This document shows, piece by piece, positions 3,340 through 36,309 of a stretch of 64,000 nt of DNA. Within the stretch, counting starts at the first letter, position 1; every line of letters begins with the position of its first letter. Made by a program: the position numbers and the translations under genes. Under the pieces are notes generated by a model. That model was not told where the DNA came from. It did no database searches and was given only the letters and a program-made list of their open reading frames with translations. This DNA is from Lutibacter flavus (GTDB taxonomy: Bacteria; Bacteroidota; Bacteroidia; Flavobacteriales; Flavobacteriaceae), in assembly GCF_900188355.1 (NCBI RefSeq), contig NZ_FZNX01000002.1, positions 1 through 64,000 on the forward strand, in the 5' to 3' direction.

Positions 3340-3778
3340 TTCATTAATTATTATATTTGAAAAATTCCAAATTTATTAGTTTTTAAAATTTAAATTTTTA
3401 TTTAAATTTTTTCTAAGTAAGGATAAACCTTACTTAATGTGGGTTAAAACATTAATAATTATTAGATTAGTCGCCAAAATTAACGATTTTAACCCAATTT
3501 TCAAAGATTTATTAACAGTTTATTAACAGTTTGTTATGGATTTAAAACAAATTACTTTATTATTATAACAAACAACCTATACTTAATTTTTTTATGACAC
3601 GTATTTTAGCACAAAGTCACACATCTGTCAATTAATTGACAGATGTGTTATGTATCAAAAGTTGCATTTAAAATATTTTATAAATAGATTTTATTTAAGA
3701 AAGTTTAAATACAAAAATAATCTAAACCTTTAGTGTAATTTTCTAAAAAGAATTAACACCATTAAAAAAGAGATTTTT
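3340..3778. other. AT-rich intergenic region without a recognisable gene
   Basis: About 440 bp between the hydrolase stop and the adhesin leader. I find no plausible ORF on either strand. It holds a minus-strand TAAATTTG box (3368-3375) without a clear TTG partner, and a perfect 30-bp palindrome described separately. Confidence 0.6.
3619..3648. repeat. Perfect 30-bp palindrome downstream of the serine hydrolase gene
   Basis: Two 15-bp half-sites (ACACATCTGTCAATT and its complement) abut with no spacer. It lies 131 bp past the stop of the minus-strand hydrolase gene. It could fold as a terminator stem, but no T run follows on either strand. A dimeric regulator site is the alternative. Confidence 0.55.
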
Positions 3779-8043: not shown

Positions 8044-8062
8044 CACTGAGCTTGTCGAAGTG
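8044..8062. repeat. Short palindromic repeat (CACTGAGCTTGTCGAAGTG)
   Basis: Imperfect palindrome in the 89-bp gap between the adaptor and first ATPase genes. It resembles the GAGCGGAGTCGAA palindrome found inside metG in this window (34711-34761), suggesting one dispersed family. Confidence 0.6.
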
Positions 8063-34197: not shown

Positions 34198-36309
34198 TTA
34201 ACTCACTTGCTCTCCATTACCAACTGAATCATTTTCCGGTTCAATAAAAGTTAATTTACCTTCAGGAGTATCAGTCATTAAAATCATTCCCTGACTTTCA
34301 ACGCCTCGTAATTTTCTAGGTGCTAAATTTACCAAAACTGTTACTTTTTGCCCAATAATATCTTCTGGTTTAAAGCTTTCAGCAATTCCAGAAACAATGG
34401 TTCTAACATCTATACCAACATCAACTCTTAGTTGTAGTAATTTTTTAGTTTTTGGAACTTTTACCGCTTCAATTATAGTACCAACTCGCATATCTAATTT
34501 GGTGAAATCATCAAATTCAATGGTTTCTTTTTGTGGTTCTACAACTTTGTTTTCCGCCTCATTGGCTAGTTTAGTAGCTTCCAATTTATCTAACTGCGCC
34601 TGAATTTCAGCATCTTCTATTTTAGCAAATAACAATTCTGCTTTTCCTATTTGATGATTTGGTTGAATTAATTCCACTTTTTCTGAAACATCGCTCCAAG
34701 TAAGTTGGTGATTGAGCGGAGTCGAAATCACTCCCTCGCCAACACTTCGACTCCGCTCAATGTCCATCAAATTCAAAATTCCTTTTAATTTTTCAGAAGT
34801 AAAAGGTAAAAATGGCTCAGATACAACTGATAATCCAGCAGCAATTTGAAGCGCAACATACATTATAGTCTTTACCCGTTTCGGATCCGTTTTTATTTGT
34901 TTCCAAGGTTCTTCATCTGCTAAATATTTATTTCCTAATCTCGCTAAATTCATCAACTCTTGAGAAGCTTCTCTAAAACGGTAACGTTCTATAGAACTTG
35001 CTATAATTGAAGGGAATTTTTGTAGTTTTTCTAAAGTTTCATTATCAACATCAGAAAACTCATTTGGTTCTGAAATAATTCCTTCGTAATATTTATTTGT
35101 AAGCACTACTACTCTATTAATAAAATTACCAAAAATAGCTACCAACTCGTTGTTGTTTCTTGCCTGAAAATCTTTCCAAGTAAAATCGTTATCCTTAGTT
35201 TCTGGTGCATTTGCAGTTAATGCATAACGCAGCACATCTTGCTTTCCAGGGAAATCTTCTAAATATTCATGTAACCAAACAGCCCAGTTTTTAGAAGTGG
35301 AAATTTTGTTTCCTTCTAAATTTAAAAACTCGTTTGCAGGTACATTTTCAGGTAAAATATAACTTCCTTCTGCTTTTAACATTGCTGGAAAAATTATACA
35401 GTGAAATACAATATTATCTTTTCCAATAAAGTGAATTAGCTTCGTGTCTTTATCTTTCCAATAAGGCTCCCAATCTTTTCCTTCTCTTGCAGCCCATTCT
35501 TTTGTTGATGAAATATAACCAATAGGTGCATCGAACCAAACATATAAAACTTTTCCTTCCCCACCTTCAACAGGAACCGGAATTCCCCAATCCAAATCAC
35601 GCGTTACAGCTCTTGGTTTTAAACCATCATCTAACCACGATTTTACTTGTCCTAATACGTTTGTTTTCCAATCATTTTTATGGCCATCAACAATCCACTC
35701 ACGTAACCATTTTTCGTATTTATCTAAAGGTAAATACCAATGTTTTGTTACTTTGGTTGTTGGCACATTTCCAGTAATTGCAGATTTTGGATTGATTAAA
35801 TCTGTTGCATTATGGCTAGTACCACAACTTTCACATTGATCTCCATAACTTTCTTCATTTCCACATTTTGGGCAAGTTCCAACAACAAATCTATCTGCTA
35901 AAAACTGATTTGCTTCCGCATCATATAATTGCTCTGAAGATTCTTCTATAAATTTTCCATCATCATATAATTTCTTAAAAAATTCTGAAGCAGTTTTATG
36001 ATGAATTTCTGCAGAAGTACGAGAATAATTATCAAAAGAAATTCCGAAATCACTAAATGATTGCTTTATAATTGCGTGGTATTTATCTACAATATCTTGA
36101 GGCGTAACACCTTCTTTTTTAGCTTTTAAAGTAATTGGCACACCGTGCTCATCGGAACCACAAATGTATAATACATCATTACCTGTATTACGTAAATAAC
36201 GCGCATAAATATCAGCTGGCACATAAACACCTGCCAAATGACCAATATGTACTGGTCCGTTGGTATAAGGCAAAGCCGCTGTAATTGTATATCTCTTTGA
36301 ATTGCTCAT
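34198..36309 (-). CDS. metG: Methionyl-tRNA synthetase with a 17-residue repeat-encoded insertion
   Basis: 703 residues from [18 protein letters not shown]; the ATG at 36390 adds 27 unconserved residues. HIGH is at 21-24, the zinc knuckle uses C146, C149, C159 and C162, and KISTS at 335-339 stands in the KMSKS position. An anticodon-binding helical domain (about 370-550) and a C-terminal EMAP/Arc1p-like tRNA-binding domain (about 595-703, [14 protein letters not shown]) follow. Residues 517-533 ([17 protein letters not shown]) are encoded exactly by a 51-bp palindrome. The inserted peptide sits near the end of the anticodon-binding region, away from catalytic motifs, so the enzyme should work. 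Confidence 0.96.
34711..34761. repeat. 51-bp palindromic repeat inserted in frame in metG
   Basis: Perfect 16-bp arms ATTGAGCGGAGTCGAA (34711-34726) and its complement (34746-34761) flank a 19-nt loop. The length is divisible by three and the frame has no stop, so it adds 17 residues to MetRS. Confidence 0.85.

Follow-up and report, generated by a model that had tools for sequence, protein, structure and literature searches.

Two inverted REP-like units within metG of Lutibacter flavus lie in a methionyl-tRNA synthetase loop that appears to be rewritten repeatedly across Flavobacteriaceae

How an essential enzyme comes to encode a palindrome is the question raised by metG in the analysed window, a 64,000-nucleotide stretch of Lutibacter flavus (GCF_900188355.1, contig NZ_FZNX01000002.1, positions 1–64,000, forward strand). 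The gene (34,198–36,309, minus strand; ORF and Pfam) encodes a methionyl-tRNA synthetase (MetRS) with a C-terminal tRNA-binding domain, and at 34,711–34,761 it holds a 51-bp palindrome of two inverted REP-like units, which were located by direct reading and genome pattern search: a first arm ATTGAGCGGAGTCGAA on the plus strand (34,711–34,726), which is a TGAGC..GTCGAA unit, a 19-bp spacer (34,727–34,745, direct reading) and a second arm TTCGACTCCGCTCAAT on the minus strand (34,746–34,761), which is an inverted copy of the unit. A sequence-only reading of the window had described the arms as perfect over 16 bp and the palindrome as lying in frame within metG and encoding residues 517–533; the first point was confirmed by direct reading and the second by minus-strand translation from ATG. 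Residues were counted from the ATG at 36,309; an alternative TTG start lies one codon earlier. The insert is located inside the match to the anticodon-binding domain PF19303 (residues 418–573), and its GC content is 53%, versus 34% for metG and 30% for the window. A repeat search returned an extended palindrome at 34,706–34,766 (21-bp arms, 90% complementary); the two units fold imperfectly when each is taken alone. A perfect, uninterrupted 15-bp palindrome (ACACATCTGTCAATT/AATTGACAGATGTGT) was noted at 3619–3648 of the window.

The complete 3.89-Mb genome was searched for the arm with the pattern TGAGCN{1,6}GTCGAA, which gave 60 matches, versus 1 for the reversed control pattern; by these genome-wide copies chance is ruled out as the source of the palindrome. 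Outside ORFs of at least 80 aa lay 51 of the 60 matches; 9 lay inside, two of them the metG arms, and those inside the LacI, PurL and LeuRS ORFs may be chance matches, in-ORF matches not each being proven repeats. A likeness of the arms to 8044–8062 had been pointed out from the window alone and is real: this stretch (plus strand, outside ORFs, preceded by TGTC) is a single unit of the same repeat, CACTGAGCTTGTCGAAGTG, with the common TGAGC..GTCGAA core. The genome search for other copies that had been proposed with it returned the exact unit TGAGCGGAGTCGAA five times, namely twice in metG, once in an alpha-2-macroglobulin-like ORF (in frame, read as TSTPLSN) and twice outside ORFs. Further inverted unit pairs are present, e.g. 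at C2:71145 and 71176. With its many, mostly extragenic copies the repeat behaves as a dispersed palindrome of the REP-like sort, and the name that fits the insert best is untagged REP-like dimer.

Among the best 80 of 591 named loci, the window MetRS was closest to genes of Lutibacter metagenome-assembled genomes (MAGs). The insert is absent from one gene of the same genus (L126, 93% identity to the window MetRS) and from two Lutibacter MAG genes (L045, 89%; L046, 88%), all three having 8 residues in the segment where L. flavus has 26. The gap in relatives that the sequence-only reading had expected was thereby found, with a difference of 18 codons and not 17; given these 18 codons, 34,706–34,766 is likely to be the true extent of the REP-derived DNA. 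Near relatives without the residues, together with the arm copies elsewhere in the genome, support the reading of the palindrome as an insertion. Two further Lutibacter MAG genes (L047, L048) carry same-core repeats at this position, read in the opposite sense and present as tandem copies. In a genome of the same genus (G077, locus L417), which stands outside the 226-gene set used below and outside the matches listed for family genomes, the MetRS match is split exactly at the loop, and a long in-frame insert is found there, with inverted CGTCAT..ATGACG sequences near both ends and a resemblance to the D-type loops L139, L150, L151 and L167.

For the comparison across the family, the best 80 of 591 confirmed named loci were combined with the window gene and 149 others (the other genes among 150 matches listed for 397 family genomes), and removal of 4 duplicates reduced the 230 genes to 226, among which genes with long inserts are under-represented because the sample leans toward high-scoring MetRS. 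Length-variable stretches were defined as alignment columns with occupancy below 90%. At residues 517–535 of the L. flavus protein 26 different lengths were found, and 55 genes had at least 8 residues there; the remaining internal variable stretches reached 4 residues and the last dozen residues 8. Both protein ends also vary in length; otherwise, 517–535 was the sole strongly length-variable stretch found. The insert appears to sit in a putative surface loop that is permissive for many frame-keeping lengths. One of ten palindrome consensus strings was matched by 84 of the 226 loops (58 of these by family A, F, B, E or G), versus means of 0.05 for shuffled loops and 0.1 for non-loop stretches of these genes (each control run 20 times). 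As strings A, T, C, D and H had been taken from the loops themselves, dispersal was checked, genome-wide for A, B and T. In relatives' genomes A gave up to 54 matches and B up to 25 (reversed controls 0–1); T reached more than one copy in 1 of 40 genomes, and in another three its lone strict match was the metG position. H was weakly specific, with 2 reversed-control matches in 629 kb, and only L195 and L143 depend on H alone. Strict repeats in the 80 named loci (629 kb, 90% inside ORFs of at least 100 aa) numbered 12 in metG ORFs, 26 outside ORFs and 3 in other ORFs, and A, F and B also occur outside metG in these loci. With kinship ignored, A was more abundant elsewhere in genomes with an A loop (5 vs 22, i.e. 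27 of the 40 searched; p 0.016) and B in genomes with a B loop (5 vs 25 genomes; p 0.019). What escaped the sequence-only reading is that repeats have landed here recurrently across the family.

By label the loops comprised A (26), B (18), T (17), composite (8), F (the window type, 6), E (5), D (5) and C (1), composites and F being assigned by eye; the labels total 86 and the matches 84 because the composites L158 and L225 had no automatic match. Nine or fewer residues were present in 56 of the 226 loops, and 84 were longer without a recognisable repeat. On a MetRS tree from which the loop was left out, at least 49 changes of loop group are needed (45–50 on 12 bootstrap trees), a count in which the 84 unrecognised loops were treated as missing and which includes losses and swaps, not gains alone. 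Since the tree was made from this very gene, transfer of metG as a whole fails to explain these changes. Shuffled labels gave a mean of 68 changes and a minimum of 58 (100 shuffles), against which the 49 observed show the labels to be partly inherited. The clearest case is that of two genes of one genus (L155 and L164; 88.7% identity outside the loop), one with a CGTC-type and the other with an A-like palindrome, at equal length. The A loops were read in one frame in 23 of 26 cases (3 unscored, of which L265 is reversed), the B loops in 17 of 18 (one unscored) and the T loops in 15 of 17 (one in another frame, one unscored). Random insertion would not give a single frame, which points to inheritance with swapping in place, to selection on the peptide or to a site-specific process; the window insert, which is in a different frame from A, looks like a separate event.

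The 51 bp are thus very probably two inverted REP-like units that were inserted in frame into a permissive metG loop in this lineage. The repeats may arrive as small non-autonomous mobile hairpins, or by recombination with the other repeats of the genome; insertions elsewhere in genes would mostly be purged, and because the loop would tolerate many frame-keeping lengths, those landing in it could persist, swap and decay. Neither a transposition event nor a target-site duplication was seen. Most likely the added residues serve no function themselves and are a tolerated insertion.

A palindrome that entered the loop once or a few times early, its interior since swapped by recombination or deleted, with little new insertion, is a serious competitor, although we judge it the less probable course of events. 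It would fit the partial inheritance of the labels, the common outer arms and register of A, T and composite loops (B and E having another register) and the composites in which, by eye, a second repeat is nested between the arms of an A-like repeat (L208, L225, L195, L245, L133). Against it, the window insert and those of L047 and L048 stand in other orientations and frames (IERSRS..STPLN, STPLSDQ), the same genus includes both the other insert kind of G077 and the short loops of L045, L046 and L126, the A and B registers differ yet interchange within one genus, and the loop is short in the root Flavobacterium genes L094, L097 and L106 and in most of their neighbours. Two other genes named Flavobacterium (L061, L070) have loops of 11 and 10 residues with no recognised repeat.

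Other genes were inspected by means of 40 stretches picked around B-type matches in five genomes (45 matches). Nine of the 45 matches lay in ORFs, two of these in metG, one in LeuRS and six in other genes (an Mfd-like protein, a 3-hydroxyacyl-CoA dehydrogenase, a PRA isomerase, a NamZ protein, a glycosyltransferase-like protein below the Pfam cut-off and a MeaB/mutase protein). LeuRS has a second variable site of similar sort, immediately before the editing domain. Its loop measures 14 residues in 19 of 48 scored genes, some other loops hold REP-coded peptides, e.g. VIASEAKQSH, and some a nuclease-like DUF559 domain of about 100 residues; 18 of the 48 match the tried families, which is not a rate, 20 of the 50 loci having been picked for long frames or convenience (the two unscored ones, L372 and L367 of L. 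flavus itself, are both among the 20). In L350 and L355 the LeuRS loop is a short tandem direct repeat of GTTCAGA-like units with no palindrome. The LeuRS of L. flavus (L367, C7:483300–485700) contains an in-frame DUF559 before the editing domain (C7:484725–485006, E 3.9e-15), and its MetH (L389) contains one between two B12-binding domain matches (C4:230481–230801, E 5.9e-35); relatives have DUF559 in MetH (L387 and, by reading, L395) and in frame within IleRS and RecG (L390 and L397). Ten LeuRS loops of more than 100 residues, the L. flavus one being outside the ten, were scored for palindromes at their ends: five had a GC-rich palindrome at both ends (L365, L368, L370, L371, L373), three at the start only (L361, L369, L374), and in L375 and L376 the end test found one at neither end. 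The DUF559 segment with palindromic ends looks as if it were a mobile element with hairpin ends. A two-tier mobile system of the Flavobacteriaceae could be imagined, in which palindromes would enter permissive linkers of essential enzymes (MetRS, LeuRS, IleRS, MetH, RecG) site-specifically, either alone, as short peptides in frame, or as a longer in-frame element with palindromic ends that codes for the DUF559 domain, with the nuclease as mobiliser, in a manner that might be likened to the homing endonucleases of inteins, without splicing; we consider this unlikely. The connection between DUF559 and the palindromes is a lead and not demonstrated, and DUF559 and REP counts are hardly correlated: with A counts the association is weak (rho 0.34, p 0.037, multiple testing and kinship ignored), with B counts there is none (rho 0.01), and two genomes rich in A and B (G011, G017) have neither Y1 nor DUF559 matches, on which ground DUF559 was rejected as mobiliser. 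The Y1 transposase was likewise rejected: PF01797 gave 0 matches in the L. flavus genome at E 0.001, and its counts were unrelated to A (39 genomes, rho 0.04); with B they gave rho -0.32 (26 genomes, p 0.11). A plasmid source was also discarded, 301 bases giving no megablast match in PLSDB.

A functional adaptation of MetRS, in which the insert would serve for example as a contact or as a regulatory mRNA hairpin and its palindromic DNA would be incidental, is very improbable. The frame is open and the predicted mRNA hairpin is strong (34,696–34,776 folds at -33 kcal/mol, z -4.6, with 0 of 200 shuffles as good), but the sequence, length and repeat family of the loop differ among close relatives, the loop is short in the 56 genes counted above, and copies of the same repeats are mostly extragenic. 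An RNA-fold profile along metG in 60-nt steps of view, taken over all genes, had no clear peak at the loop and was set aside. A chance palindrome or an assembly artefact is scarcely credible, for although, of 60 window copies simulated with a first-order Markov model, 1 had arms of at least 16 bp (spacer up to 60), arm length by itself being only modestly above chance expectation, the arm is a dispersed repeat, the Lutibacter MAG genes L047 and L048 have same-core repeats at the same site and the frame is open across the insert through a conserved 704-residue reading.

The insert, read as an inserted pair of REP-like units, was then compared with known systems. BIMEs and REPINs are paired inverted REPs with a RAYT transposase; the two inverted units with their spacer are like them, and the L. 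flavus genome differs in having no match to a RAYT-type Y1 transposase. RPE palindromes are said, after Ogata et al., to be inserted in frame into unrelated Rickettsia protein genes. The metG insert is likewise an in-frame palindromic insertion absent from orthologues, whereas RPEs are about 150 bp long and belong to Rickettsia. One species relevant below, G. forsetii, is a flavobacterium. RPEs (Rickettsia palindromic elements) are described in the available part of a review (PMC10969869), and the available text of Di Nocera et al. 2013 (PMC3733652) classes RPE-4 and RPE-6 among CGTC repeats. The same text reports CGTC REPs in Bacteroidetes, with G. forsetii among the CGTC-positive species, so the earlier remark that such insertions are undescribed in Flavobacteriia needs care. 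It further reports tRNA synthetase genes with internal REPs in X. oryzae, E. litoralis and S. alaskensis, and different REPs at about one recB site in two Xanthomonas species; the word 'methionyl' is absent from its main text. As far as that text goes, the metG insert resembles the intragenic GTAG/CGTC REPs in being a short dispersed palindrome, of a kind often found as inverted dimers and sometimes in genes including those of tRNA synthetases. It differs in that its units have no adjacent CGTC or GTAG tag (by eye, neither CGTC nor TGTC/CCTC at either unit) and an imperfect stem in place of the 8–9 bp stem and 4–5 nt loop of the CGTC superfamily. The relatives' B-type loops (e.g. L093) have both by eye, with a TGTC tag, an 8-bp stem, a 5-nt loop and a CCA tail, and are in these respects like the CGTC repeats of PMC3733652.

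Intragenic insertion of the REP/RPE type is thus a known kind of event, and the unusual part is the recurrent landing site; no family-wide recurrence at one loop, by several repeat families, is reported in the available text of PMC3733652. Among the titles and abstract openings listed in literature searches, none described repeats in Flavobacteriaceae MetRS or in-frame DUF559 insertion, which is no proof of absence; the novel part seems to be that a single loop of an essential enzyme is rewritten again and again across the family. In-frame palindromes in genes have been known so far from isolated instances. Here a single loop has changed its content dozens of times within a bacterial family, by way of several repeat families, and the result is a natural set of inserts within a protein that is otherwise almost constant. 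It becomes possible to test how REPs that lack a known transposase move, for which the DUF559 found in frame at the comparable LeuRS loop is a candidate enzyme, and how far mobile repeats supply new protein sequence; in the Flavobacteriaceae, one part of an essential protein appears to be rewritten continually by small mobile repeats.
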